Source: Toxoplasma gondii ME49
Taxonomy: Eukaryota; Apicomplexa; Conoidasida; Eucoccidiorida; Sarcocystidae
Direction: 5' to 3'
DNA: 64,000 nucleotides
Assembly: GCF_000006565.2 (NCBI RefSeq)
Contig: NC_031469.1
Span: 310,001 to 374,000, forward strand
Within the stretch, counting starts at the first letter, position 1. Each line of letters opens with the position of its first letter. The notes under the pieces were generated by a model, which was not told where the DNA came from, searched no databases, and saw only the letters and a program-made list of their open reading frames with translations. The position numbers were made by a program, and so were the translations under genes. Below, in pieces: positions 3,478 through 59,500 of the stretch.

Positions 3478-6400
3478 TCACATGCGCACTGACACATTTT
3501 GCTGGGCAGGGGTGAGGCTTTCACCGGGAGATCCCTGATTCCACGAAGAACTCGCCTCCCCCTGTCCGTCCATGTCTTCCCACTGCGACTCAAGGTCGTC
3601 TTTCTCGGTCCTTTCCAAAAGAGAGGCGGCAGCAGCTACAGCCGCCTCTTCGCCCACCGCTTGAAACATTTCAATCATCAGCTCTACGCATGCAGCTGTC
3701 GTACGCGAGTCTTCGCTACCACACGTCTTCTCACCTGCCTCCTCCGCTTCCTCGAAGTTTCCGTCAGCCCCGTCGCCTAGCTGTGTCTCTGCACGCAAGC
3801 CCTTGGTGCCACTCAAGTCGATTGCGAGCGCAGGACGAGCACTACCTGACTCTTTGTCACCCCAAGTTTCCCCGGATTCCGGAAATGTCTCCGATCGAAC
3901 GACGGCGGCAGGAGTCACAGGAAGTGGCGAGACACCGAGGGTCCCAAGTCCCCCGTCTCCACACTCGCCGCCTTTCTCGAGACAGCTGATACTTCCTGAC
4001 CACCCTGACAAAATCTGGCTTGCGACTGGAGACAAATCGTACGCCGACGTCGTTGTCGACGAGGCTCGCGAGAACGACCCCGCAGTACAGACAGTCGACC
4101 GGCTAGAGAATCGGCGGAGACATGAGAGAGTCCCCATCGAGAGCGTTCCAACTCGCGACAGCACAGAACCGTTCGCCCACGCAGGCCCCGAATCCGCCTT
4201 CCCCTCTCCTTCAGAGCTGTCTTCTTCGAATTTCCCTTTGTGCTCACCGCTTCCTAGAGACTCGGCTGCGCAAGTGTCGGAGACTGGCACACTTGCCTGG
4301 CCTTTCCCCTCACGCAGAAGCGACGCGTTCCTTGATACATCTCCCTCCTCGTGTGGCTCGACACCACCATGAATCGCCGTCGCTTCGACCTCAGTGCACG
4401 CGCCTGCGGTTCCAGTACGGTCAAAGACGCGACATCTCCCCTCACCCTCATACCTGCCCACCTCAAGTCTCTCAGCGCACACCTTTGCCGGCACAGGTTG
4501 CCGTGAATCCGAAGAAACTGCCAGAAGAGACGACGTTTCCTCGTGACAAACACGACTTTCCTGGATCGACGCCTGGCGACTCAAACTCCGATCTTTCACC
4601 TCCGAAGCCGTCTCCTCGTTGGACTGCTGCTCGGTCTTTCGATCAGAGTTTCGAAAGCCTTCCTCTCTACCAGCCCGTCCTTCCACTGCCTGGACGAGAA
4701 GACGACGTGTCTGATCCCTTTCTCCGGACGGCTCGGGGTCGAGGACGTCTCCACTCGAAGCAGACACCGGCGCTGCGCCTGCCGCCAGACGACTCTGGGC
4801 TTCTCCCCTCCACTGCAGCGCCTCTTCGATGTCTTCTAAACCACAGGGGATGCCTAAAAGAAACTGCAGCTTCCGTCGCTTCCGCAGTTGCTCCTCCTGG
4901 TCGTCCGCCACGTTATCTTTGTTGCTCTCCTGCCGACCTTCGCCGGATGTGAATGTCTCAGACACGCCGCGTTTCACTGCCGTGGTTTTCTCCCCGAGGA
5001 CAGATATCGAGACACTTCGTCTGACCCTGGGCACCGGATTCCCCGCGCCTCCATGCACCACATGTTCCGCCGCGCGTTCCGCCGTCAAGCGCGCATATTC
5101 GTTGTGCGGCAATACACCTGCGATAAGGCACTCGATCGGGTCTACCACACTCACGCCGACTTGGCTATCCGCGACGGTCTGGGACCCGCGAGGTTCTCCC
5201 AGGCGTGCTTTCCTCGCAAACTCCTTGGCCAGCGTCGCGGCCTCAACTGGCAATCGGGGAACCGATTTCTCTGAATCCCCAGCTATCGAGAACGCCTTCG
5301 CCTCGCCAGCCTTCTCTCCAAGAAAGCCTTCTCCGGCTTCCACCTCCGCATGCCTCTGACGCCAGGCTCCGTAGGACTCTGAGGCTTGCATACAGTCCGA
5401 TCGACTTCGACTGTCCTCCTTTGCGTCACCCAGGCTGGATCCGTTCGTCGCCGGGGACCGACAAGCCCCCTTCGCCTTCGCCGAGGACACCTGCGACGTC
5501 GACAGTGTCTCTCTGTTGCCTTCAAAACGGGATCCACACGGTCCTTCCGACCCGACCTGAGCGCAGTTCCACAGTCCAGCGAGGTTGTCATTTTCGGCGT
5601 CGCAGCCTTCGCTGGAAACCGCATGGCCTGGCAAAGTCGTCCCCCCCCGCTCAGAGGGTACCGCGCGCAGGGCGTGTCGAGAGGACCGGCCAGCCATCTG
5701 GTCCTTCTTGTGGCCTTCAAGGCGACTCCGCAGCACCGCCGCAGCTGCCGCATGCAAGGCGTCGAGCTGGTGTTGAGTCGCGTCAGGCGCCGACGATGCG
5801 TGACCGCTGTGACTCGCCCCTCGCCCGTGGGTACCAGGCAATAAAGAACGTCTGCCGCAATCTTGCTTATCTCGTCGCGGAGTGTCCCTGGCTCTGCGGG
5901 GACCAGCGTTTCTGGCGTTCGGAGCTGCAGAGGCGGCGCGGCACGACCCGGCCCGGAGAAGCACCGCGGAGCTGCCGGCCTTGCCGTCTTTGTCCACTCG
6001 ACGGTCGCTGGCATGCCCTGCTTGGATCCCAGGTTCTCGGGGCTTCACTGCGACTGCAGCCTTCGCCAGGCCAGGCATGGTCTCCAGCTGCCCCTGTCGT
6101 CGGACTACTGTCCTTCTGGGAGGAAACGGTGACGCTGTGGTGCCGGCTGCGCTTCGAGAGAAACGCACATTCAACGAAGCGATTCGTGCTTCGGCCAGCG
6201 TGCGAATCGGGGCGCCCGGCCCCCAACTCTGGACTGGGGGGACCTGTCTGGGACTGTCGCTCGGCGCACCCTTGAGTTTCTCTGTTTGCAGCGCGGCACT
6301 TCGTCCGACCTCGTCTGTTCTTCGCCGCGACACACCCGCCTTAGACAACTCGGGCCGTGATGCCCCCGTTCCAAAGGCGCCACCAAACCTCGCCTCCGCC

Positions 6401-9400
6401 TCCGTCAACGACCGTGGCACGGCTGTAGGTGTCTTCACTCGTCCTGGCTGGTCTTGGAGAACAGCTTTGACTACGTCGCCGCAAGAGGGCGACCTCGATT
6501 CGGATCCTCGCGCGAAGCCGTGGGCGTTGTCTGTCGCGTCCAGACCCGCCTTCACGGAATTCTTGCAGGATGACCAGCAGCCACTCAGCGGCGTGCACCG
6601 CGCCTCAGTCCCGCCGACTTCTTTAGGTGACCCCGTCTGTCGGACGAGTCTCCCGAGTTTCTCGCGGCACTGCATGCTCGACAGCTCGTTCGCACTGCCC
6701 ACCGGGCTGTCCATCGTTGACAGTCTGGACGGACCCATGACTCGGTCTGCTGCCACCTTCTGCGCGGACGTCGGTGTCACTGAGATCTCTCCAGCTCCGT
6801 TTGCCTCTCGTAGCCTCTCTAGCAGGGACTCCAAAACCATTTGTGACCACAGTCCGCGAGAGCGCGCCACCGCTTCGAGAGTTTCAGAAAGCAGTGATCC
6901 GTTCTTTTTCGTCGGCGCCACGACCTTGCCTATCTCTTCGTTCTCTTCTGCTCCCGAGCCCTGCTGCAAAGTGTCAGTAGTGCGGTGCAGCCGCTCGTCC
7001 TCATTTGGTTGAAACGCGTCCTTCGATTTCAACTCCGACTTGCTTTCTGCCTTGGCCTGCGTGCTGCCCTGCTTCTCAGAAATCCATCCCAGGGACTGGA
7101 AGGTATCTTCGCATGCATCTGCGATGGCAACAGCAGCTGCCGCCGTCTCCTGCGGCCCGAGGAGAAATGGGCAACCACCGGAAAAAAGCTGGACCTGAGG
7201 CAAGCAATGCTTCGTCCTACACGCGACGGGGCAAGCGCCCGTGATGTCTCCGTATACCGCAGCGCGCGAGGCCTGGAGTCTGCGGAGATTAACTGGGTCC
7301 GCCCTCTCCACGAAGGTGCAGGCACTCGACGAAACACACCCGCCGTGAGAGCGGCCAGCACCTGCAAAGTTCCCCGGGAAGCCGCCAGCGCAACAACTTT
7401 CTGCAGCGCCCCGTACGAACGTTGACGAACTCTTGTCTCCACTTGCACTGCGGACCGCATCAGCTGTCGCCACTCTCCAGCACCCACTGCATGTGCTCTG
7501 GCCGCAGCTGTCCAGCCGAGAATCGCCTCTCCACGGTGTGACACAGTCCATGCCGCTCAGACTCAGGCATTCATGGTCGATCGTGACGCCTTTCTCATTC
7601 ATCACCTCCGCATGTCCCCTGGCCGAACTTCGCTCGCAGCCACACACGACGACCTCACCGAAGCATCCGGTAGTTCTCCACTCTCTGTTGCTCGGCGACG
7701 GGAAGCTCTTGGCCGCATTCAAACTGCAGGCGCACATTCTCGGCGGGACCGCACAGCGGCAGAGCCGTACCGTGCCACAACACGGTAGATTTACCTCATC
7801 TCTCAATTTCTCGCCCACGGAGACGTCGGAGCGACACCCTGGGGTCCCCGCGAGAAGGCTGTTCGCCGGAGAGGCAACCCCCAGCTTTGAGTTGGAGGGC
7901 GACATTATTTCCGGTGAGCTTGTGCACAGTGAGTACTGGCGCTTCGCGCCTGACGCCGACACCGTCAAGGAGCACGACGCTTCCGGTTGCGCGTCTACGA
8001 CCGCCGCGTCAGCTGGAGATAATACACTAGAGCCTTCTCGTCCTCCAAAGATTCTGGACGCCGGCGACTCTGAGCCACACTCGAGGCGGTTTTCGTTGTC
8101 ACTGCTGTTTTGGTTATTACATAGAGAAGCGGGAACTGGAAGATTGACACTTTGCTCCGTTGAAAGCACCGCCGCGGAGGACTCAGCTGCCACGACTGAG
8201 ACGAACACATTCTCGTCAATGGGAGGTGTCTGTTAACATACACACACACAGAGCAGAAAAGGGTATGACACAGATTCAGGCAGGTAGTTCTTCTGTATCT
8301 ATTTTCGTACAAGGCTTTCGTCGACACTACGTGACAACTGTAGCTGTAACGCATTACGTAAACTGTAAAGATAATGCTGTCCGACTCTGATACTTCACGC
8401 AGGAGTTGCTGTCTCCTTGGATAAAGCAAGCGCTGTTTGTAAAGTTATCTCCCTTCTTACCCGAACAAGACGGGACCCTGGGGATGAGGCAGCTACAGGA
8501 GTGTTGTCCTTGGATTCTTCTTGAATTGAAGTTGGAGTATCCTCTCCTCCTGTTCGCCGTAGAACAAGTCGTGGTCTCGTCAGCTTCTTGTTTTCCTTCT
8601 CCGCATGTGGCTGGCACTGCAGACTCTGCACCTCGCCTTCTTGAGTGGAGTCGTCTTCCTTGGTCCCCGCGGCCAGTTCAGCACCTGTCGACACGGCACA
8701 TCCGATCTCTGACGGTTGCGGTTCCTTGTCACGAACTCCAGTCTCAGAAGTCTTGCTTGGATGACTCTTAACTTCCTCCGTCGGCTCTCCCTCCATCCTT
8801 GGCTCCGTTTCTGCCAGTTGCCTTTCCGCAGACTCCTTCCTCTCCTCTCGATGCACGGGCACAGCGGATTTTCCTTCCGCCGCGGTACTCCCCCAGGTGT
8901 CCCGCTTTGCTTCGTCTGCGCTCTGTCTGTTCGGCAGACTGCGCGTTTCTCCCCCGCTACCGCGCGCCTTTGTCTCCTGGGTTGTCTCCATGTGTGATGA
9001 GCGCTGCACGGTCTCCGTGATATCCCGATTCTCAGAGGCTTCAACTCGTGTCTTGAACATCGTTTCAGAACGCGTTGTCCTCACCGTTGCCTCTGTGTCT
9101 TTTGACTTTTCAAAGTCGTCTGCTCCCTTCTCCGGTATCGCCGCGTCATTGGCTGGAATGTCTGTTTCTCTCCGACCCTCCGGAACAGTCTGGCACCTCG
9201 CCATCGCTGCGTCAACTCCGACTGTCTCACTCGCTGCAAGCGCCACACCGGCGTCGTCTTTCTCGGCGACGAAACGGTCGCTCTGCTCCCCGGACTTTCC
9301 CCTATCTGTTCCAGGCAGATCCACAAAGTCTTCACATCCTCTCTTGTTCCACACGCCATCCGGCAGCATGCACAGTTTGCTTATCTCGTCCGGGGACTTG

Positions 9401-23917: not shown

Positions 23918-26900
23918 ATGAGTTGCAGCGTGCAGGTCGCTGTACGGGTTCGCCCGTTCAACTCCCGAGAACGGAACTTGAATGCGTTTTGCTGCATCAG
24001 TATGAATGGACGGCAGACAGTGATTACTGATTTGTCAAAGAAGAATGACGAGAAAAAGTTCACGTTCGACTATTCCTACTGGTCACACGACGGGTACCAC
24101 GAAGAGCCGTCTGGCTACTTTTCTCCAGCACCTGGTAGCCACTATGCAGATCAGAAACAGGTTTTTTCCGATGTTGGACAGGGGGTCTTAGACAGTGCCT
24201 GGGAAGGCTACCACGCGTGTTTGTTCGCCTATGGCCAAACGGGGAGTGGAAAAAGCTATTCGATGGTTGGCTACGGAGAGAACAAGGGGATTATTCCCAT
24301 TGCTTGCGAAGAGATTTTCAGACGCATCGCTCAAAACAAAGACCCTGCCAAGTCCTTCGAGGTCTCCTGTAGTATGCTTGAGGTCTACAATGAACACGTT
24401 CACGATCTTCTCATCAAACCGTCAACTCGACCACCAGGAGGACTAGAAATAAGGTATTCTCCGCCCACCACGGGCAACAGAATCTCCAGTATTGGGTCTT
24501 ATCACAACAATGCTTTTTTTATCCCGCGGCAGGCCGTAGACTTCCACCTCCATAATCAAGCCAGGCTTGCTCTTCAAACAAAGAGATCGCACGCTCAAGC
24601 TCTAGAAGGAGAGACATGGCGTCGGCCTACGTTGCCCAGAAAAGAGCACGAAACACGCAACCAAACCACACCCACAGACAGACGCAACGGCGTAGTTACG
24701 CGGCTGGTCAGCTGTGTTACCTTGGGAAGCAGAAGGCTCCCATGTTTTTATATATGTTGGTTCTCTGTCTTGGGAGGTGCACGGGAAGCAGCTTGACCAA
24801 GCTACACTTATATGGAATTCACCAGGGCATTCTCCCTTTTGGAGCGTTCGTGGGCGTTGAGGTAATTTACACCAAACGGAAAACTGTCACAAACATGTGG
24901 AGGGGGGGGGGCAAGATGTCGGAATACGGGGATTCCGTTTCTCGTCTGACAAACACAGAGAAACGAACACAAACAACAAGCAAACGAAGGATATCCACCA
25001 CGTGTTCAGAGTTGTCCTGCGCACTGTTGTTGGCAGTCGAGAGCCCGACTCGGGCGCCTCAGGCAGAGTGCTACAGAGGTAGGCACAGTTCGTGATCTTG
25101 GGGTGTGTACATCTCTGTGCTTTTCTACATGGTTCTACTTGGCTCCAGAGAATCCAAGGTCCTGGGAATTTTTGTGGAAGGCCTTTCAAAACGAGCTGTG
25201 AATTCCTACGCGGGCATCCAGAAAATCGTCGACGAGGGAACTTCCAATCGATCCAGTAGGTCCCTCAGCATCATCGTTAGAGAATTCTCGACGAACAATA
25301 AGTCCAACGATGAAGTTGTTTTCCCACCAACATCTAGATGAACAGTCGTGCAGTAACGAAAGGATGGTTCACCGGAACGTGCTGGGGGCGATTCGTCAAA
25401 CATCTTTGTCAGTCTTTCCTGTTCTCACCTGGAATGTAGAGAAGACATGAATTCCTGGTCAAGCAATCAAAACGAACCCTAAATGGTCGCAGACTGGGGA
25501 GGAGATGGCAAGTGGACGCTAATTTGTAGGTTCACTTCCACCACCGAGGAGAGACACGATTTTTCTGATAGTGTAAGGAAGCAGATGGAACTCGTCGAAT
25601 CTTTTTTCGCAAGTCACAGGCCTTCTTCAAATTCTACCACACCAACACTGCAGGGTTTTGACGTGAGCCGTGGAAAACCTGGTGCAGCAAGCGCCAACAA
25701 TGTGTACAGCTAGAGTGAAATGCAGCAGTTAATTATTGTCTTCAATTAAACATATATATATATATATATTTGCCTGAAGTAGATCTGCGGAAGCCGAAAA
25801 TCTATATTTTATGTGGACTGCCTTGTATCATTTGCAGTTGGAGCAACTCTGATGAACGCGACGAGCAGTCGGGTGAGTGCTTATGTTCGTCAAATGTGTC
25901 ACAAGAGCAAAGATGCGAACAATCCGTGAGAGAACGGATAAATGGGAGAGCAGCATCTCGTGGTTTCCCCTTGACTGATAAGCAAAACACGAAAGACACC
26001 AGACCGACAGGTTTTCTGTAGGCAGCGTTGCCTCGTCTGCGCGTCTGTTCTCTATCGACGGGGAAACGGCAGAAAAGGAAGCGAACACTGACGAAATGCG
26101 CGGCGAAACAATCTTGCAGAGACCAATTCGAAATTGCATTTCAAAGCGTACTACCCAGCGCAGGCGGACACCCATTTAGGTCTCTTACACAATCTCTGAC
26201 GGGCCGCACTTACGGAAATGCCGAGAGGGGTAAAACCGGAAAAAGCACCTTGACATTGAAAACTGATCTGCTACGTTTCTTACGGAACCGCGTTCTAGAA
26301 TTCAGAGCCGAAACCGTACGCCAGCCGTGTCACTCTGTTTCCGCTGTCTCACTCTGTACAGCAATGACGAGAGTAGGAACAACAGTGTTCCTGCCTCTCC
26401 AGGGTGAAGCCTCTCGAGAGGGTGAAAACCACCGGAGGGGAAGAGTGATGGACACTGTTAGTGAAACACAAAGGAAAGGAACTGTTAATTAGGTTTTCTC
26501 CTGAAGAGAAGATTCTGTCGGTCACCACAAATTGACACAAAGAACGCAGCCGTTTTTCACCGGTGCGTTTTTGCCCTCCTTTTCCCCTTATGCCGTTTGC
26601 CTCTCTTAGGCGCACACTGTCGTGTCAATTGAGTTGCATCAAGTCACAACGATGAACGGGAAGCAAGGCCGCAGACTTTCTGTCATTCACCTCGTCGACC
26701 TCGCAGGCTCGGAAAAGAACGACCAGACACAGGCGATTGGGGACCGTCTCAAAGAGGGATGTGCAATCAACAAATCTCTGTCGGCGCTTGGGAACGTTAT
26801 TTCGGCCCTGGCCGACAAAGCTGCCGGAAAAGACAAAGGCCGAGTGGTTCCGTACCGTGATTCCAAGCTCACGCGACTTCTGCAGAACGCGCTAGGCGGC

Positions 26901-37973: not shown

Positions 37974-40900
37974 TTATTCTTTCAGCGTCTTCTCTTCTTC
38001 GCTTTCTCGACCTTTCCTCGCACCGCCGCTATGACTGCGGCCCTCGTTTTCGCCGTCGTCTTCTTCTAGCACACGGAAAGAGAGAACAGACTCATCTCCA
38101 AGAGGGCAGCGACAGCCGCCTCGCTCTGTCGGTGAAGCTTCCGCGCTGAGAGGAGACAAACGAAGAGTAGACGGAAGAGAAGACGAGGAGAAAGAAGGCG
38201 AAGAAGAGGGAGAAGAAGCACAAGCGGAGAGAGACGAGAGACGGGGAGAAGCAGGGGGAGAAGACCAGGCAGGGAGAGCAGAGGGGGGAGAAGAAGAGAC
38301 AGCAAAAGAAGGGGACTCAGGCGAAGAAGGAACCGCATGGAGGGAAGGCAAAACAGAGTGGGGTGGAGTGGATGCGGCTAAGTGCTCAGAGCGAGAGAAG
38401 CTCGCCAGAGGTTGAGCTCGAAGAAGATCGGCGACAGGCGAGCGAGGAGGACAGGGGGAAGACGAACGAGAAGACGGAGAAGAAGGGAGGAAGGAGAGAG
38501 GCGAACTCGCCACGAAGAGAGAAGGCGACCAGCCATGCTCGCGCTCACTCCGCGAAGACCGAGACGAAAAAAAGGAAGAAGGAGAATGAGGGGAAGGAGA
38601 GACAGAACAAGACGGAGAAGAGGAACTCAGGGTGGAAGTCTCGTTTCCCTTCTGAACGGGCAAAAGAGATGTTCCTTGCGCATTGAAAGCCACAGGGGCG
38701 GCGACGTTGACGCGCTCCACGAGATCGGCTAGAGAGAATGTGGAGGCGTCGACGGCACCTCCAGATAAATATTCTCTCACGGCCTTTGTCTCAGCCACTG
38801 CACGCTCTGCATGCGCCTCAACTCCCTCTGCCACAGACATCTGTTCTCCATTTTCTTCTCTTCCCCGCGCCCCCTCTCCGTCTCTATCGGATGCAGCATG
38901 CACCTTTCGCGCGTCCTCTCTCTCCGGGTGTATTTCCTCTCCGCCATCCGTTGGCTCTTCTCCTCTTTCCTCGCCTTCCTCACTACCTACTCCCGGTTCC
39001 CTCTGTTCTGACGCTCTTCCTTCTTCTCTCTGTTCGCGTTTAATTTGCTCTCCTTTTTGCCCTTCTCGTCTCTCCCCCTCTTCTCTTTGTGTCTTGTCAT
39101 TTGCTTCTCTGCTTCCTTCTCTCTTTTCCAGATCCCCCTCTGCGTCGCACCTTCCCGCTTCTACGGACTCCTCAGTTTGTCTCTTCTCGTCTCTCTCCTC
39201 TCCTCGCGTGCAGGCGCCTTCTCTGCCGCGTCTCTGAAGGACCTGCGTCCACGTTCTCGGTTGAGCCTCCTCCAGCTTCCTCTCCACACAGATTTGGATT
39301 TCTTCCTCTTCAGGTCCTGTCTCCATTGACGTCTCCTCTTTCTCTGTTGTCCACCTTGCTTCTCCTCTCTCCCGTATCTCTTCGGCATCTTCTCTCTCCT
39401 GTGTCTCTCTCTCTTCCCTCTTCATTTCCTCATGGTAGTCTCCAACGCTTTGTTCTTCCCTTGTCGGTCCTTCTTCTTCGCTCGCTCTGCCTTCAGGCGC
39501 GTCGCTTGTTGGTCCTTCTTCCTCGCTCGCTCTGCCTTCAGGCGCGTCGCTTGTTGGTCCTTCTTCCTCGCTCGCTCTGCCTTCAGGCGCGTCGCTTGTT
39601 GGTCCTTCTTCCTCGCTCGCTCTGCCTTCAGGCGCGTCGCTTGTTGGTCCTTCTTCCTCGCTCGCTCTGCCTTCAGGCGCTTCCCTTGTTGGTCCTTCTT
39701 CCTCGCTCGCTCTGCCTTCAGGCGCGTCGCTTGTTGGTCCTTCTTCCTCGCTCGCTCTGCCTTCAGGCGCTTCCCTTGTTGGTCCTTCTTCCTCGCTCGC
39801 TCTGCCTTCAGCCGCGTCGCTTGTTGGTCCTTCTTCCTCGCTCGCTCTGCCTTCAGGCGCGTCGCTTGTTGGTCCTTCTTCCTCGCTCGCTCTGCCTTCA
39901 GGCGCGTCGCTTGTTGGTCCTTCTTCTTCTTTCGCTCTACCTGCTTGTTCTTGCTTTGTGTATCTCGCTTCTTTGTTTCTCGTTTTCTGCTCTGCGTGTT
40001 TGTCTCTTTGCGTTACTTTGGGCAAAGGTCGCCTTCCTCGTTTTTCGTTGCGTCGCTGGTTCTCATCACCTCCGTTTTCTCTTCCTGCCTCGTTTGTTTC
40101 ACAGAAGGCGGCAGAAGCGCTTCCTCTCCGAGCATAGATTCCCTCTGCTACTTTCCGATTTCCTGTGTCTCCCTGCTCCGCGCATCTCAGCTTCGAGGAA
40201 GAAGGAAAGGAAGAAGAGGAAGAATAGCAAAACGGGAGGTGAGGCCGGAGAGCCGTGGACGGCCGCGAACTCGCCTCCCGGCTCTCCTGACGACATGTTT
40301 CTTTCTTTTCCGCTGGATCTCCAGGACTTTTCTCTCTCAGTTTCCTCTCCACCGCCAGTGTGACTCTTCTCCGTCTCTCCAGCGCCAGGCCGCGCTGCGT
40401 CTGGCCGCTCTTGAGAACTTGCGACCTCCCCCCTTCTCGCTCTGTCGCCTTCTCGGGCGTCCGAGGTTCGACGTCGGGGAGAGCTTCCAAGAGCGCGAGA
40501 AGTTTCGCGAGATTCTTAACTAAGTTTGCGTCGCTCATCTCGAACGCTGTGCCTGCGACCTGTCTCTGTCTCTGCTGGTCTTCCTCGAGATGTGTCTCTG
40601 TCTCCTCGCTCGTCTCACGCGTCTCTCTCGCCGGCCTCCCGCCTTCTGCGCCAGGACGCCCCACCGCCTCCAGTCCGAGAGAGGCGCAGCTGACGGCAGC
40701 TGCGCATCCAGAAGGAGAGATCCGACTTGCTGGAGAGTGAGAGACCACCGAACTCGCAGACGAGCCAGGCGAAGGTCGGCCGAGAGGCAGAGGAAAGTTC
40801 GAATCTTGGAAACAAGCTGTGGGGTTCACTCCCGGCGTTCCCTTCTCTCCGAGGCTGTCGCGAGAGGCGCGAACTGTCTGAGAAGATGCCCAAGCAAGCA

Positions 40901-43900
40901 GAGCGTTCCACGGCGTCTCTTCGGCTGCCTCTGCTCGCGTTCCTCGCTGTTCTGGAGCTCTCATGTCTTCCCAGAGAAGCGATGCATTTCCGAGATCGGC
41001 GCAAAAACAAAGTCCATTCCCCTCGTTCACGGTCGCCCACGCTGCCTTAGTTCTCCCTCGACGCGACCTCTCGGCCTCGGTGACTTTCGTCGGAGAGACT
41101 GGACTGCGATCCGGCGTTGCGCTTCCTGCCTGTGGTTCGCTGGCTGCTTCCTTGGCGCAGTCAAGACGCGCGCGGGCGTCTCCCTTCGTTTGCGGCGTCT
41201 CCATCGACAGAGACGAAATGTTCGAGAGGCTGCGCTCGTCCTCCCGACCTGCGGGAGCGACTGTCTGTTGCCAGGCGACAGATGAAGAAGAGGGCAAGGC
41301 GACAGGAGGAGACAGCGAGGAGGCCGCGGCCAAGGAGGCGTCGCGGCTATCTGGACGAGAAGGCAACTGCGACTCGGACAGTGCACAGGAAAACCGTTCC
41401 TCCTGCGTGGAATCAGATCCGCGAGAGGAGAGTCGCGATCGGAGAACAAGAGAAGACGCCGCGCTGCTTGAGGGAAAGCTGCAGTGAATGCTCGCCGCAG
41501 ACTCGGAGGCCGGCGTCGAAGTCTCCAGCACAGATGCACTCACTATTGACCGGAGAGCAGACCCGCGTGGATGCGAGGCTTTCTGCGCCGTTTCAAGTGG
41601 CGACAACGGACAAGTCGCCAACTCCAGGTTCCCTCCTTGGGGCATGCGTACAGCCGACAGCGCCTCATGCGTTGCGCAGTCTTCTTTCCGGAAAGTATCT
41701 TTCCTTCCCCTGAGCTCTTCAGAGTCAGCAGCAGTCGGAGAAGAGGGAAGCGAAGTGGAAACGAGAAACCATGCGGAGCGCCCAGCTCTCCTCTCTCTCT
41801 GCTTCTCTGCCTCAGGCGACACTCCTGGGGTGTACGTACACCCGGGAATAGCCGCGTTGAGCTGTACATACGCCAGATCGCCTTTCCGCGGCTCAAACAA
41901 CGCGGAGATGTCACCATCTTCATCCCCTTTCTCTTCTACTTTTCTTCTTCCTTCCTCTGCTTCTCTTTTTCTTTCTTGTGTTTCTCTTCTGCTTTCCGAT
42001 GTGTTTCTGTTCGTCACTTGCGCCTCTGTTTCCTGCTCGTCCACAGCCTCCGCGAAAGAGGCGGCCGAACGCGCTCTGGAGACATTTCGCGCAGTGACAG
42101 ATGCGTACGGACGCAGCCGTTCTTCTCCGCCTGCCAGCAGCGTCGCTTGCGCAAGGCGCTCCTGAAGAAGTTCCTCAAGGACGGGGAGGTCCTGGTTGCA
42201 CGCAGTCACTTCTGCTTCCAAGGCAAACAACTCGTCTTCTTCTGCGAGCCGCCGGCCCAGGAAGGAACTCGGAGTCTTCTGAGCCTCTGTTCGTCTGCTG
42301 CTCCGTCTGTGTTCGCCTCTGCTCTGACTCCGGCTGCTTGAAAGTTTGTCTCGAGTCTTCTCGCCCGGCACACAGCGTCTGTCCAGCGCGTCGCGCAGGA
42401 CGCGCTTTTTCTCTGCGGTGTCTGCGAGGGGAGAAGAGGGAGCAGAGGAGAAGAGCGTTTTCGAATCGTCGGCGAGGAAGGACGACGAGGAGGAAAGAAC
42501 CGAAAGGGAGGAAGCGGAACTCGGAGACGGCCGAGCGCGCAGCGACGACCTTTCGAGGATTTCTTCGATCTCCATAGAGAGTCGCGACAGCCGCTGAAAA
42601 GGAAATCCAAAAAAAGCAGCCGGAGACCGAAACAAACCACAAACGCAGAGAACTGCACGATGCAGGCAGGCGATACACACCGACCTTTTCTCTCTACGTA
42701 TGCCGACATGCATATACATGTGGAGACATGGACACCTGCGGTGTATGCGTCTTTGCATGCAAACAGCGAGGGAGACCGCTGGAAGAGGGACCAGAGGCAT
42801 GAATACGAAGCGGGGAACGAGGTTAAGACGTTCTTGGCTTTTTCTGAAGCAAGCGCGAGAAGGTGACACTGCGCAGTTTGCTGGCTGCTGCGAAAGAAAC
42901 GAGTTGTTGCCAAACCACCACGAAGAACTACCTCGAGGAAAGGCACAGATCCACATTTGCGCAGACTCCCTTTCTCACTCGCGAGGAGAATCGCCGTCAT
43001 CTTCGAGAGAGTATCTTTCATTAAGAACGCCTTGAAGGGACTCTAGATTGACTCCATCTAAACCGAGTTTCCGAACAACACTGGGATACTTCTATGTGCG
43101 AGACGCGAACACCCTTGCGAAACGCCCCTCTGCTTTATTCAGCAACTCTTCGTAAACGACGGGAGGCGATCCAGGTGTACGTACACCTCGCCGAGCGTCT
43201 CAGAGGAGCCTCGCGTTGAGAGGCACCCCCATGGAGAGCAGCGCTACGAATGTAAGATCCTGCCGACAAATTCATGTTTGCTTGAAAGACCGAGTCCCTG
43301 TAACAGTGCTGCTTTTCTGTGACAAGAGAGCCTGCCCGGTAGCAAGACGGAAGAGACTAGCTGACCGACCGAACAAAAAAGGCATGCTGCTTTTGAGGAA
43401 GACGTACCTCTTTTTTCCTGAGAATCTCCGCTTCGCAGGCCCGCAGCTCTCTGCGTTTCTCCGACATTTCCTGTCGCAGTGGAGAGGTTGGATTTGCGCT
43501 AGCCGCGGCGCCTGGCCCCGACCTGTCGCCGGAGAGCGAAGAGACAGGCAGGTGGAGACAAAAACAAAGGAGAAGCGGAAAGCGCAGAAAATAACGGCAC
43601 CGAGAAGAAGAACGACGAGTAGAAGAGAAGAGAGAAGAGAAGCACAGGAAGAAGAGGGAGGAGCAGAAGAGCGGAGGAGAGAAGCAGGTCGAGAAGAACA
43701 AAGTGAAAGAGGTAGGTAGAAGAGAAGAAAAGGAAGGAGGAAAGCCGATCCCCGACGTACCGTTCCGTTTCCGTGTCTCTCGCATGTTTCTCTCTGTCTT
43801 CAATCTCAGCATGATGCTTCATCTCCGCATGCAGACGGAGGTCCTGCTGAGCTCCATACAGCCGCCTTCGGAGTCCCTCCAGAGTCGATTCTTCGGCCTC

Positions 43901-52091: not shown

Positions 52092-53652
52092 AAAAGAGTC
52101 AAACGCGGCTTACGCGTTCAGCGCATGCAGTTTGCATGTGTGCGTTGCATGCGTCGCCTCCCTGGTGGTGGCGGGCGTTGCGTCGGAGGATGGCGAAGAC
52201 TGAGAGACTGCTTTGTCGGCAGAAGGGAAGATCGTCTTTGCACAGTGTTGATTGTCACTTTTTCTTCGGTCTGTCTCTGGAAAAAGACGGAGGACGCGGA
52301 GATGGAGCAGAGGCCGAATAAACCTCAATCAGGAGGAAAAAAGTCTGTGTTTCAGAGACGCCAGATTTGTTCCAGAACGAAAAGGCATTTTTCCACCTGA
52401 GACGGAGACAGCGAGAGGGCGGGAAGGTACAATGCGAAGAGGAGGAGAGAGAGAAACAAAGGCAGGTGGAGAGAAGAGGAGTGGCGACGCAAGTTGCGGA
52501 GGACTTTGTTTCATTTTTCCTGTTCTCCGTCCAATGTCATTTGAGAGAGAATCCCCTTGGCAGTTATGTTCTGAGACTTTTGACGGCCTCAAGTGCCATC
52601 GTCTCCTCTCCTTTTCGTCCTTTGTGCTTTGCCTTGCTCGCCGTCATTGTGCGTCCGTTGCGCGCCTTCCGCGCTTCTCCTTCTGTCTCCTTGCTTCGCT
52701 TTCTTCTTCTTCCCTCTTCTTCTGCTTCTTTCGTCCTCCGTGATTGTTCCCCTCTCTCCGTCCGCTTGTTCTCGTCCGTTTCTCTTGTCCTTTCACCTGC
52801 GAGGCCGTGACGTCGCCTCGGCCTTTTTTTTGAGGCGAGAGGCGCGCCAACCACCTTGAATGACAGACTGTAAAAATCCGTACACCTGCGTCGAAAACTC
52901 CGTAGAGCCGTCAGTCCTCTGCAACTTCTTTTTTCGAGCGCGAAGGTCACAGTGCTGCTCGCATGCTGCGCTGCGATGCGTCTGAAGAATCGGCGCGTCT
53001 CGCCTCGACAAAAAAACGCCCAACTCCACACCCGGGCATCGCCACGATTTCTCTGGTCGCCTCGATTCCTTTCCCCCTCGACTCATGAGCTCCCCAAATT
53101 CGCCGCTTGCACATCTACTCCATACATGTATAAATCGATATAGCTACAGTTATATACAGAATAGAAGTACATATAAATATATAAATATATATATATATAT
53201 ATGAAACAGACACGCATGCACCTGGCTACATGTGTGTAGTGAGAGAGATAGACAAATGCATGCATGCACGCATAAACAAATAAAGGTGTGTGCACATATA
53301 AACATATGTATATATATATATATATACATATACATACATATATACATATATACATAGATATATGCACTTTTATGTGAACTTGTGTGTCGTGCATGAAGGA
53401 ACTCTTCAGCGTTTCTTTGTAGTTGTCTTTTCTTTGTGGCGTCGTCTGGTACCCATCAAGCGTACGGATACACTTTATCCAGTTTTCGTCGCGAGAGGTC
53501 CACGAAAAAGGCCTGCTCAAGCGTTAACATCCCTCTCCACTCCTGCCTTTTCACAGCGACTTCCATTACAGACGACAGTTTTATTTCTCGGACATGTTTC
53601 TGCGAATTCGAGTGGAGAGAGCCCAAACGGAGTCACGTGAGGTAACTGGCAG
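52092..53652. other. ASH2-like 3' flank and AT repeats
   Basis: No gene is supported. A 97-codon minus frame (53086-52793) begins with ATG and ends in a basic tail, but matches nothing I know. TA repeats lie at 53176-53202 and 53308-53356. A splice-bounded plus piece at about 53570-53631 (after TTACAG, before GTGAGG) reads DSFISRTCFCEFEWREPKRS. It may be an exon of the uncharacterised plus-strand gene that follows. Confidence 0.35.
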
Positions 53653-54875
53653 CTGCAAGAGTTTATGCGCGGAACGGCGCTGTCGAGCGCAGCTGTTGCT
53701 CAGGACTTGGAGCTCGAGCTTCTGTCGACGAATCCTTTCGAACTGCAAGGAGAAAAGGAACGAACTCTCAGCAACGACCCATCGGTAGAGAGTGTCTGCC
53801 GAGACGGTTTTTCTCAAGCGGTGACGAGAAGTGAACAAGGCGCGAGGGAGACGAGAGGCAAAACCTCCGAGTTAGTCGCATGCGAGACGAAGCAATGCAC
53901 AAACCTCGATGGTGCACCGAAAGCAACTCATGCGCGAAGATCTACAGGAAGCTGCTCTGCATTTGGATGTAGTGCCAGCGACAGGCGCGTGGATGTTTCC
54001 ACCGAGGCTCTCCGAGGCGGTCGACTCCTCTCCTGAGGTTCGTCCAGTCAAGCATGGACTTCCTCACACGACTCGAGTCTCTCTGTCGAGTTCGAGCCGC
54101 CTGGAAAGAAATGGAGCCAAGGCGCCGGGAGAGGACAGCACAGGGAGAGCGTCGCAGACGGAAGGAGGCGAGCAACTGGCATCGCGCGCCGGGACATCCA
54201 AGCGCAGGGCATCCGTCTGAGCCTCGCGCATGCAGAGAACGCGATCGGTCTGAAGTCTCTTCTGCCTGGAGAGTCGATTTCTCTCTTTTCCACTGCTCCT
54301 TGTCTTCTTCGGCGCCTGCCCTCGAAGTATCTCTCTTCTCCCCTTCCGACATTCCGAAGGCCTGCGAGAAGTCTCGAACTGTGTTCGACCTCAACAACGT
54401 TTCCGTGGAGACGCTTGTCGCTCGCGAAAACTCGATGCTGACCTTTGGTCGAGACTGGAGAGTACAGGTGAAGTGCACGTTTCGCGACGCTGAGGGCAAA
54501 GCAGCGCCGCGAGTCTGGAAGGAGGCTCAGACGAGCCTTTTTCGTCTCGAACGCAAGCGTCCATCCACTCTCCAAAGAACAGGCCTCGAGCGGGGGGAGG
54601 GAGGGGAGGGAGGGGAGGGAGGGCAACACCGTCGAGACGTCGGCGAACCGTCCACCTCCTCCAGGACTCGCGAACGTCAACTGAAGAACCGAGGAGGACG
54701 AGTCAAGCAGCCTGTGGGGATGTCTCGCTGTGCGGCCCGCCGCGCGAAACTATGGCAGCAAAGACGATCCACTATGTCACTTCGGCCATCTCTTCTCGTT
54801 CTTTCGATGTCCAGAAGAAGCCTGGCTGGTCTCTCCGGCTTGGCTCCCTTTCTGCAGGCCTCCTCTGAGCCTTGA
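53653..54875 (+). CDS. Coding-like plus-strand stretch, structure unresolved
   Basis: Several plausible exon pieces occur in different frames, and I do not recognise the product. Examples: 53653 onward after TGGCAG (LQEFMRGTALSSAAVAQDLE); about 53952-54035 after CTACAG and before GTTCGT (EAALHLDVVPATGAWMFPPR); about 54360 onward after a pyrimidine-rich tract (RTVFDLNNVSVETLVARENS, then LTFGRDWRVQ before a GTGAAG donor). A piece after 54713 in another frame reads TIHYVTSAISSRSFDVQKK. Phases of the second and third pieces agree (both 0). The boundaries given mark the stretch, not a gene model. It would end just before the minus-strand MoaD gene, which is convergent with it. Confidence 0.3.
54592..54623 (+). 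repeat. G4-prone GGGA/GGGGA repeat
   Basis: Six runs of three to six guanines are separated by single adenines. This is a strong G-quadruplex-forming pattern on the plus strand, inside the coding-like stretch, where one frame reads GEGGEGGEGG. Confidence 0.65.
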
Positions 54876-55072
54876 GTCACTTTTCGGAGGCGCCTGCGTT
54901 TCCGCTGCACCTGGAGACGCTTCAAAGCGCTTTCGCTGCTTCCTTTTTTCGCGGAGTCTGAACATTCGACTTTCATGCGCCTCTGAAGCCTGGCGGCACC
55001 GCCTTTGCTCCGTAGGAGGCTCGCGCAAGAGAGAGCGCGAGAGGACGGCGCGTTGCTTCTCTCAGGTTTTTC

Positions 55073-55519
55073 TCACCCGCCGCTGACGGGAGGGAGAAGA
55101 GCGAGTTCCGAGTCTTCAGCAATCGAAACGCGTTCTTCCTGCCCAGCGAGGACGCGATCGACCGCGAGCGCACAGACCGGCAACAACGGCAAGAGAGCAG
55201 GCAGTTGCTCAGCAATCACCGACAGCAGGAAAGACACTGGAAAAGAAGAAGACGGAGGGAGATTGGGCGAGCGAAGCGGCGACGAACTGGCGTCCAGGAA
55301 ACAGCCGCCTTCCTCTTCTGACCGACAGTCCCCTGTGTCGCCTCCATCCCTGCAGGCTCCAGCGTCCGCGCCGCTGTGACGTCCGGCTTGATCCTGTCGG
55401 CGCGCCGCCTCTCCATCGGGTGTGAGATGTCCGTTCCTGGGAGAAGGAAGATCGAGAAACACCGAGGAGGCCCCCACCGCCTCGCGCGCGCTCGCGAAGA
55501 GAAACAAGCGAACCTTCAT
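55073..55519 (-). CDS. Molybdopterin synthase small subunit (MoaD/MOCS2A-like)
   Basis: A single-exon frame of 148 aa with the ATG at 55519-55517. MoaD is a ubiquitin-fold sulfur carrier. Its C-terminal Gly-Gly is thiocarboxylated, and it gives sulfur to the MoaE subunit to make molybdopterin. The N-terminus MKVRLFLFASAREAVGASS matches the first strand and helix of MoaD, and the end LAVDRVLAGQEERVSIAEDS then ELALLPPVSGG matches its last strands and the hallmark PP-V-[ST]-GG terminus. Bacterial MoaD has about 81 residues. The extra length is a low-complexity insert of about 65 residues between the second strand and the helix LLSVIAEQLPALLPLLP. The insert ends in a splice-acceptor-like TTTTCCAG, so it might hold a very short intron, though no good donor fits. 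The PPVSGG end favours MoaD over Urm1 (which ends HGG). Catalytic partners are not visible in this window. Confidence 0.8.
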   Translation of the reverse strand: MKVRLFLFASAREAVGASSVFLDLPSPRNGHLTPDGEAARRQDQAGRHSGADAGACRDGGDTGDCRSEEEGGCFLDASSSPLRSPNLPPSSSFPVSFLLSVIAEQLPALLPLLPVCALAVDRVLAGQEERVSIAEDSELALLPPVSGG

Positions 55520-56571
55520 CAGCGAAACGGAGGGAAGCTCGACCCAGCGAGTGACTTCCTCTCTCCTATTTGAGCAGTCTTTCTTGTTCTCGCTGCTTCT
55601 CCCTCCCTTCTTCTCTGGTGCTCTCCTGTCCTTGGTAGTCTTTTCCAGAGAGTTTCCTGTTTGCCGAGAGGCGACAGACACTGTGTGGAACTCGGTTCAA
55701 CGTCTTGGCGGCCGACGTCTCGGTCTTCCAGAGCGTCGGGAGTCCCCTCTCGCCGTGACGCGGAGAAGGAGCGGAGAAAACGAGGTTCCAGGCAGGAACG
55801 TCTCCCTGCGCGAGAAGACCAGGACGCAGGACAGAGCGAAAGCTGGAGAGAAGAAGAAGACGAACAGACGGCACAAAACTCTCGGGAAGTCGAAAGCGAA
55901 AAGCCGCAGGCTCTCGTGGTGAGTCGTCCGGAGACGAGACCTCGGCTGGTGTCTCGCGCGCGCCGCCGTTGCGCCGTTGCGTCGTTGCGTCGTTGCGCTG
56001 TCTACATACAAACGCGAGGCTGCAGCAGGGAAAGCGGTCGCAAGACATGCGCAGAGAAGAAAAGCGTTTTCTGTTTCCTCTCACACCTGGCAGAGAGGAG
56101 ACGTAACTGCTTTCAACGACGGAAAGAGATCCGCGAAGGTCGCAGAACAGTCCTGCGTCTTTTCTCCGAAACGGATTTCTCCTCAGGGGGTGTCTCTCTT
56201 GTGAGGACGCGGCAAGGAGGCATTATTAGGGGCGCGCGAAAGCGCATGCGCGCCAGGCGGCGGAGAGTTGTGCTTTGCGTCGACGCCTCAGTCCTTCTCT
56301 CGTCTGTTCCTTCTTTTCGACAAGTTTCATCGGGAGAGTTTTTCTCGCGCGCGACTCCTCTGCAGCGGAAAGGGCAGTGTCAGGTTCTCTCGCGCCGGGA
56401 CTGTCCGGCGCCGTCGCTCTTCTGTGTCTCCCCGTCTTCTGCGCGTCTCCTCTGCTTTTTTCGCGAAGCCGCGCCCGGTTCTCCTCGGCGCGACTCGCAG
56501 CTCTTCGCGGCCTTCGCCTGTCTCGCCGCCTTCTCCCGCTTCTGGCTGTGAGTCTCCGCGCCTTGGTGGAG
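55520..56571. other. Region between divergent MoaD and phosphatase genes
   Basis: Probably the promoters of the minus-strand MoaD gene and the plus-strand histidine phosphatase gene. One plus-strand piece, 55649-55918, is bounded by TTTTCCAG and a consensus GTGAGT and is open in two frames. It could be an untranslated or coding upstream exon, but I cannot place it in a product. Plus-strand frames over 56268-56609 are Ser/Arg-rich and without family. Confidence 0.35.
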
Positions 56572-59500
56572 ATGACGACGCGGCTCCTGGGTCTCTGGAG
56601 ACACAATGATGTGACTCACGAGGACTGCAAGTTGACGACGTCGACGTCGACGTCGACTCTCCGGGTGAGGCTCTCTTTCACTTGTTTTCTTCGCAGGCGA
56701 AAAACATGTTGCTGTTTGGACTCAGTCGGCCGAAAACCACAGCGACGTAACTGTCCTGTCTCACGCAAGATCACTCGCAGGATCATAGGCACCTGGCCAT
56801 ACGAACGACTGAGGAGTCCTTTTCTCTCGCTCTCTCTCGTTCCGCGGAGAGACTTCTGCAGAGACGTACAGGCACGAGGACGCCGCACCTCCTCCAGAGG
56901 TTGTTCTCTTCCTTTTCTTCCAGGCGACCTTTGATGCATCCGAGGTCTCTCTTTCTCGGTTCGTCAGTAACGTTTTCACCGTCATCGTCTTCCTTTCTTT
57001 AGCTCTCTAACGAACTCCTGTCTCCTGCGTCGCTTCCTCGTCCTTTTTGCGCCCACTCGTTCTCTGTTTTCTTCCGCTCATTCTGTCCTATTCTCCCTTC
57101 TCCTTCCTTCTCCTTCCTTCGCTCTTTAATAACGCCTCTCCTTCCTCGTCTCTGTCTCTTCCCTCTTCGTTCTTCCTGCACTGCGTCCCTGTTCTCTCTT
57201 GCTCCTTGAACGTTTCCTTTGGCTCTTCGGTCTGCGTTTCGCTGTTCCTGTTCTTTTGCACCTGCAGTTGATCCTCGTGCGACATGCGGAATCGACGAAC
57301 AATGCGTTGTTTCTCAAGTTGCGCGACGAAGCTCTCTGCAGCACCCGGGCGGACCGTGAGTGACGTTGCTCTTCTCTGTCGTCCTGGGTGTCGCCTTTCT
57401 CTCTTTTTTCTTGCTCGTTTCGCTCCCTCTTCTCCTTTTTTCTACCTTCTCTTTCTTCTCTGCCTCTTTCCCCCAAGCGCGCCTGCGAGCTTCGCTCCGC
57501 TCTCCCTCCTCCTCGCCTCGCGTCTCCTCTGTTTGCCTGCCGCTCTTTCGCTGTCTCCTCTTCCTCGTTCTCTCTTCTCGCGTTCTCTACTTTTCACCTT
57601 GTGCCGTTGAGTTCCCTACTTCTCTTCCTGCCTGGCCTCTGTCAAGTCGATCGTCTAGGAACCTTCCTGTCTTCGCCATGACTTCTTTCCGGTCTCGCTT
57701 TGTATTTTCCAGCTATTTCTTTTTCGCTGTCTCCACTTCTCCTTCCTTGTCTTTGCCTTGATTCGGTCTCAGCGCTGCTGAATCTTGAGGAGCTCTTCGA
57801 GGCACACCGGGAAGTGGGTAAGTTCACTCCTGAAGCGACAGCGCGTTTGCTCTCCCTGAGATTTGCTACATTTGTTTTTTTTTGTGTATAACTACAATCG
57901 ATTCTCTACATTTCTTTCGCTCTCTCTGTTTCTCCTTCCTTTTGCTTTCCGTGTGCTTCTTTCATATTTACTTCTCCACTCGCACTGAGGAGTTTCTCGG
58001 TGCATTTTCGTCTTGATTTCCCTCTCCACTTTTCGTCCGTGTCTTTCTTTCTGTCTTTTCTCCACGCACTGCCCGAGGTATTTCGCCGTTTGTTTTTCTG
58101 GGTATTACTTCACAGTTTCACGGTTGCTGCTGGACCGTTTCCTGTGCGTTTCCTTGTGGAGTTCCCTCTGTATTCTTCGGTTTCTTTCTTGTTTGTTGCG
58201 TCTGTGTTTCCGCCCCGTTCAGAGCGTGAGTCCTCTCCCAGCGCGTCGCTTTTTGTGTCAGAGCTGGAACGCTTTCCTCTGCTTTTCTCTCGTCGTGTGT
58301 ATGCAGATCCCGGTTTGAGCGAGCGCGGGAAGGTCCAGGCTGCGCTGCTCGGTCTGCATTTTCGTTCGTACCTCTCAAACTGTCACTCGCTTCCCGGCGA
58401 GCTCTCCGGCTCGGCCTCTCTGCATTCCTCCTCGACGGTCTCGTCCTCGTCCTCCTCGTTTTCTTCTTCCTCTTCTGCGTCTTCTGCTTCACTGAGCGTC
58501 GCCTCTGAGGCTTCGCTTGCGCCGGCGAGTTTCGACAGCGATGGCGACGTGCGTTGGCAGGAAGCAGGGCAAGCTCGCGATCCCCCGTCTCGTCGCTCGG
58601 CGAATGGGATGGGAGTTTCCGCGCCGCGACCCTCTGCTCAAGAGAGCAACGGAACCAAGGAAGGCGAAACCGGCGAGGCAGGTAGTGGCGACTCCGTCGA
58701 CGGTGTCGTAAGTCGCGCTGCGTTCCCGGGGAAGCATCACACGGAAAAGGAAGCGAGAACGGAGCGAGAACGCGGGGAAAGCCGGGAGGCAGACCAAGGA
58801 ACGCAGGAATGGCGGGGCGAGAGTGGAAGCGCAGGACGACATTCGATGGGCAAGGAGAAACGGACGGCAAGGAGATGGAAAGGACTGATGACAGAGAGAA
58901 GAAGACTCGAGGAATGGAGAACGAGGAAGCGGCGGAAGCGCCGGAATGAACAGAAGAGACAAACAGGACAGAAAGACGATCGAGGGAACTGGAGACACAA
59001 GGATGCGAGGAGAGGAGGTAGAAAAAGGATAAACGAAAGCATATTGAAGGTGCACAGCCGAGTCGAAAGGAGACAGAAAGAAGGTGACAGAAGAGATAAA
59101 ACGCATGAGTCGTGGTTGAAACGCTTGTTGAGCTACATAGAATTGGTGTGTGCATACAAAACAGTAGTCACACATGGACAAAAGGATGACACAGTTCGTC
59201 GAGAGAAAATGGGAGACGAAAGGTCCACAAGACTCATACAGAAATCTGTGAGAGGAGCTGGGAGGAGGTCGCGAGCGTCTGCTTTCCGTTCGAGTCTGAA
59301 GAGGCTCTACACCGAAGGAGAGAACGCAGACAAGGACCGCACAAAGCGAGCAACAGAAGAGAAAAGAGAGAAGAAAGGAAGTAGAAGGTCGAGGCGGAGA
59401 CAACAAGGAGGCGGGGTCCGGTCTCGGCCTTCTACTTCCTGGCAGGGAACAAACGTTCGGCGTTCAGAGGACAAGAGCAGGTTGACAAGATGATGGCGAA

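Follow-up and report, generated by a model that had tools for sequence, protein, structure and literature searches.

MoaD, the small subunit of molybdopterin synthase, is normally a compact sulfur carrier of about 81 amino acids, with a fold that is also common to SAMP1, CysO and ubiquitins. Here we describe a gene for such a carrier, containing a large loop insert, in a stretch of 64,000 nucleotides of the Toxoplasma gondii ME49 genome (contig NC_031469.1, positions 310,001–374,000; the whole stretch is called the window below, and positions refer to it). The pathway itself is already in print for this parasite, in papers dating from 2015–2016 (here and below, papers are cited for the passages available from them). 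In PMC4851813, molybdopterin synthesis is credited to T. gondii and marked minus for Cryptosporidium, Plasmodium, Babesia, Eimeria and Cyclospora (in Table 2, for Eimeria tenella and Cyclospora cayetanensis). The same pathway row in PMC5146892 has a plus for T. gondii only, and PMC4501334 places molybdopterin synthesis among the pathways common to chromerids and Toxoplasma. The synthesis is also counted among the predicted mitochondrial Fe-S functions (PMC8639094), and TGGT1_293480 (MoeA) and TGGT1_273350 (molybdopterin converting factor) are up-regulated in a phosphate-transporter mutant (PMC7817038). According to PMC6147048, molybdenum use has apparently been lost in most alveolates, e.g. 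Ciliophora and Apicomplexa. In the passages available from a study of ubiquitin-like proteins in Apicomplexa (PMC2408969), MoaD is mentioned only as a relative of Urm1, and in the open-licence literature searched we recognised no paper describing this T. gondii MoaD.

The gene very probably encodes MoaD of the MOCS2A type, the small subunit of T. gondii molybdopterin synthase. It lies on the minus strand, and its 148 codons are open from an ATG at 55519 to a TGA at 55073–55075 (Table 1). In agreement with the original prediction, the MoaD N-terminus (KVRLFLFASAREAVG) and the ELALLPPVSGG end are in one frame, and the stop follows directly after PPVSGG, with the Gly-Gly pair as the last residues. 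A custom MoaD profile, constructed from 112 of 127 proteins (those of 76–90 amino acids, with five coccidian-type proteins excluded), matched both halves of MoaD in order and in the same frame with a total of 77.5 bits (23.4 and 52.9 bits for the halves). The next best among the 1285 frames of at least 30 codons in the window scored 4.4 bits, and none of 50 Markov-2 random windows gave more than 9.8 bits, the best score among them. The margin over these controls is very large; the profile control is not wholly independent, because the 112 members were fetched with coccidian queries. ThiS was the only family listed in a Pfam scan of the protein up to E 10, and moaD ranked first in NCBIfam, with SAMP1 as a weak match. 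The predicted structure contains strands at residues 2–6 and 19–23 (mean predicted local distance difference test score of 94–95 for residues 1–20), and in fold comparison its beta-grasp fold was nearest to MoaD proteins, with human molybdopterin synthase as the top structure. The window protein had 0 matches in a sequence search of the PDB, and solved MoaD structures were reached by fold comparison only.

Table 1. Coordinates of the MoaD gene and its parts in the window
Feature	Position	Strand	Description
MoaD coding sequence	55073..55519	-	148 amino acids + TGA stop, single open frame; orthologues P0001, P0003
N-terminal core part, residues 1–26	55442..55519	-	first two beta-grasp strands; profile match 23.4 bits
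Loop insert, residues 27–94 by profile match	55238..55441	-	open frame, predicted mostly disordered
Acceptor-like pyrimidine-rich stretch ending in CAG	55237..55256	-	meets start of conserved C-terminal part; no good in-phase donor upstream
C-terminal core part, residues 95–148	55076..55237	-	helix 1 and remaining strands; profile match 52.9 bits; Pfam ThiS positions 26–76
C-terminal Gly-Gly codons	55076..55081	-	both Gly invariant among aligned sequences; thiocarboxylate-bearing tail by homology

The other components of the pathway are present in the same genome. The original prediction had named MoaA, MoaC, MoaE, an E1, a Cnx1-like protein and sulfite oxidase as the genes to look for; all were matched, MoaA in pieces and the E1 as a candidate. 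MoaC scored 137.9 bits, and the MoaE partner scored 54.8 bits in a 401-codon frame. A motif search for the C-terminal exon of MoaE gave no match; the exon was later located by tblastn with the MoaE parts of three MoaD–MoaE fusion proteins (L024 3924–4040), and its translation includes VKHHLPFWKEE, with both lysines of the MoaE C-terminus, which we take to be catalytic, kept. The MoaA C-terminal domain reached 35.6 bits in the genome search, under the cut-off of 37.4, and 43.1 bits for the open frame, and a candidate N-terminal piece with a CxxxCxxC motif, in a presumably MOCS1A-like context, is located ∼5.6 kb upstream on the same strand. A single 1263-codon frame (L027 3585–7373, minus strand) joins MoeA_N to two MoCF_biosynth stretches, with MoeA first and then MogA, as in plant Cnx1. 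The E1 candidate, on contig C12, consists of two ThiF pieces plus a further frame, all on one strand; this further frame is rhodanese-like only in its motifs, DVRP and CRRGNDS. Sulfite oxidase is represented by Cyt-b5, QCAGN and the C-terminal part of Oxidored_molyb, and it was the only molybdoenzyme found with the three families searched. MOSC and PF02738 (xanthine dehydrogenase family) had no match in a genome search of a kind that also missed MoaD; this suggests, and does not prove, that molybdenum-cofactor sulfurase/mARC and xanthine dehydrogenase are missing from the genome. An MFS_5 transporter scored 151.9 bits; this family includes the molybdate transporter MOT2 and is not specific to it. 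A long low-complexity stretch separates the N-terminal and middle matches of the MoaE frame (L024 2218–4040, plus strand), and the MoaA frame (L026 4093–4509, minus strand) contains a low-complexity stretch that is acidic; inserts may be a common feature of the molybdenum-cofactor pathway proteins of this genome.

When the mechanism of MoaD, MoaE and their E1 is applied by homology, MoaD, presumably expressed from an unspliced transcript, would be adenylated at its C-terminal glycine by the E1–rhodanese protein (MOCS3/Uba4 type, the candidate on contig C12) and loaded with sulfur as a thiocarboxylate. The MoaD tails would then enter the MoaE dimer and sulfurate cyclic pyranopterin monophosphate, supplied by MoaA and MoaC, to molybdopterin. 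Molybdate would be inserted by the fused MoeA–MogA protein, and the finished cofactor would serve sulfite oxidase. With MoaD as the small synthase subunit, all parts of the pathway would seem to be present within one genome, and sulfite oxidase is the sole client found; a clean test of the parasite's need for its own molybdenum cofactor is therefore possible.

Several observations weigh against this interpretation. The window protein scored 22.1 bits (E 2.3e-4) with Pfam ThiS (PF02597; cut-off 22.5) and 30.8 bits (E 4.1e-7) with NCBIfam moaD (TIGR01682; cut-off 66.15), both under the library cut-offs, by 0.4 and 35 bits, respectively; these cut-offs are detection thresholds, not biological features. 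P0001, P0002 and P0003, three of the proteins retrieved in our searches, are above the Pfam ThiS cut-off and below that of NCBIfam moaD. The library matches, genuine though weak, are restricted to the C-terminal part of the protein (residues 97–148 for Pfam ThiS and 100–148 for NCBIfam moaD) because the insert splits the domain. In the pathway, the MoaA N-terminal and rhodanese frames rest on motifs, and a Pfam scan of them up to E 1 gave no match; the joins between exons are putative for MoaE, MoaA, sulfite oxidase and the E1; and MFS_5 was also matched in 5 of 14 control genomes (in one of them over the cut-off), so it is not molybdate-specific.

A protein search at E up to 10, which covered proteins of 0.55–1.75 times the query length (a MoaD inside a longer gene model would escape it), returned five proteins among 294 candidates, including TGRH88_000520 from T. 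gondii RH88 and BESB_080490 from Besnoitia besnoiti. Both are labelled hypothetical at NCBI; in UniRef, the name of the former begins with 'Molybdopterin synthase sulfur car' and the latter is a 'ThiS family protein'. The RH88 orthologue is 94% identical to the window protein (BLASTP; 98% over aligned columns) and has the insert in the same loop, with seven extra in-frame residues within it. The Besnoitia orthologue, 45% identical, also has an insert in this loop, with a sequence hardly like that of Toxoplasma. The window, RH88 and Besnoitia proteins and P0002 have in common the start methionine and the core, and all of them end in SELALLPPVSGG, without variation. Two further MoaD-type proteins, P0006 and P0007, have two inserts each: a shorter one in the equivalent loop, from strand 2 to helix 1, and another preceding the last strand. 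Neither resembles the Toxoplasma insert in sequence. Among the matches listed from the profile search (the best 120 of 1175, among 7997 scored candidates), the only named coccidian MoaD records were those of RH88 and Besnoitia, with one member sequence each. As a yardstick, the fused MoeA–MogA frame found five clusters among 7990 scored candidates: T. gondii (six member sequences, 100% identical), Hammondia (92%), Neospora (61%), Besnoitia (47%) and Cystoisospora (36%). The small MoaD gene therefore looks missed by most annotations searched, an apparent gap across the deposited annotations. It is also a gene that a six-frame search of the genome with Pfam PF02597 at E 0.001 missed (0 matches), so absence in such a search means little for this genome; a short gene of this kind is worth flagging.

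The insert adds ∼65 residues beyond what the profile has at that place, in the loop between strand 2 and helix 1, and as originally proposed it nearly doubles the protein (148 versus about 81 amino acids). The description of it as Gly/Ser-rich is fair and also loose, as Gly (10) and Ser (9) are the most frequent of its 68 residues (27–94), ahead of Pro, Arg, Asp and Ala (7 each). Its location is common to the relatives, and its sequences are hardly alike. It is predicted to be disordered, and the fold should accommodate it in that form because the strand-2/helix-1 loop is at the pole of the beta-grasp fold away from the Gly-Gly tail. Part of it may alternatively be an open-frame intron, in which case the mature protein would be shorter (100 to 131 residues, depending on which in-phase donor is used). 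The end of the acceptor-like site (a CAG preceded by 94% pyrimidines), at 55237, is the exact start of the conserved C-terminal half, and four in-phase GT dinucleotides are present upstream of it; however, the best of these agrees with GTRAGT at no more than 4 of 6 positions. The insert region also has an open frame here and belongs to the protein in the records from T. gondii RH88, Besnoitia and three further relatives (which are themselves predictions, so the open insert there is partly a selection effect), and the RH88 length difference inside the insert is in frame. Splicing out of the insert is therefore unlikely, though not so unlikely as the other alternatives below, and the gene product is MoaD whether or not the insert is spliced. 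That the mature protein retains the insert and makes use of it, for example in steering MoaD versus Urm1 on a shared E1 or in the stability or location of the carrier, is improbable in our estimate; if true, insertion into loops would be a trait of the whole lineage in a normally compact carrier.

A recent acquisition from bacteria, or contamination, is very improbable. After the coccidian-type proteins, the best 120 of the 1175 profile matches are mostly proteins of ∼81 amino acids, and P0011 and P0098, the only two for which an organism is given, are bacterial; however, the MoaD gene lies on a 2.35-Mb contig, the Besnoitia orthologue with an insert in the same loop lies on a 3.5-Mb contig, and the top structure match is a human protein. 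A bacterial origin was not adopted from the match ranking, in which the two coccidian MoaD proteins are the only named eukaryotic ones among the matches listed; the ranking is not a phylogeny, because the search favours proteins that have exact words in common, for instance those of the shared terminus. The presence of molybdopterin synthesis in both chromerids and Toxoplasma, as given in the passages from PMC4501334, favours retention over recent gain.

The original prediction also allowed for reuse of the carrier in another sulfur transfer. Such a protein would be a second Urm1-like one, acting in tRNA thiolation or protein conjugation, and this is marginally less probable still. The fold common to SAMP1, CysO and ubiquitins and the weak NCBIfam SAMP1 match are consistent with it; against it, moaD comes first in the NCBIfam ranking, the best structural match is human molybdopterin synthase, the genome contains the MoaE partner, and the window protein has no match to PF09138 (Urm1) in the Pfam scan up to E 10. 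TgUrm1 (TGGT1_233200), called the unique Urm1 homologue and described as a protein modifier in the passages from PMC9045335, belongs to the same ubiquitin-fold sulfur-carrier superfamily, possibly with a common E1, and differs in being encoded by a separate gene on contig C10, the sole PF09138 match of the genome. With a separate Urm1 and MoaE present, reuse of the carrier is not needed and was rejected: the genome has ordinary molybdenum-cofactor synthesis. Open frames are common here (40 of at least 60 amino acids overlap 53000–57500), but a chance open frame or a dead gene is practically incompatible with the profile-score control, the orthologues, the in-frame length difference, the intact Gly-Gly and a frame free of stops and frameshifts.

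The identification of MoaD and the maintenance of its pathway by T. gondii thus stand as originally proposed. The surprise implied at the time does not, because the T. gondii pathway was already in print (PMC4501334, PMC5146892, PMC4851813), and existing views are not overturned. Nor does the proposal extend to coccidia at large: with Eimeria tenella and Cyclospora cayetanensis marked minus in Table 2 of PMC4851813, the pathway as a trait of all coccidia was discarded. The place-conserved loop insert and the apparent annotation gap are modestly new details of an otherwise ordinary finding. Elsewhere in the window, there is a kinesin motor domain exon (23918–24793, plus strand), and two very long open frames of 1660 codons (37977–42956, minus strand) and 1576 codons (3481–8208, minus strand) have no Pfam family above cut-off; the same was found in a Pfam scan of seven frames flanking the MoaD gene.

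When compared with known carriers, the T. gondii protein is similar to bacterial MoaD (TIGR01682; 1fm0, 1jwb) in that both MoaD-like profile halves align and the PPVSGG terminus is common, and it differs in the loop insert and in a score below the NCBIfam equivalog cut-off. The small subunit of human molybdopterin synthase (PDB 5mpo, the chains of which we take to be MOCS2A) is a chain of 84 residues, to which the T. gondii protein adds the predicted disordered insert of ∼65 residues.
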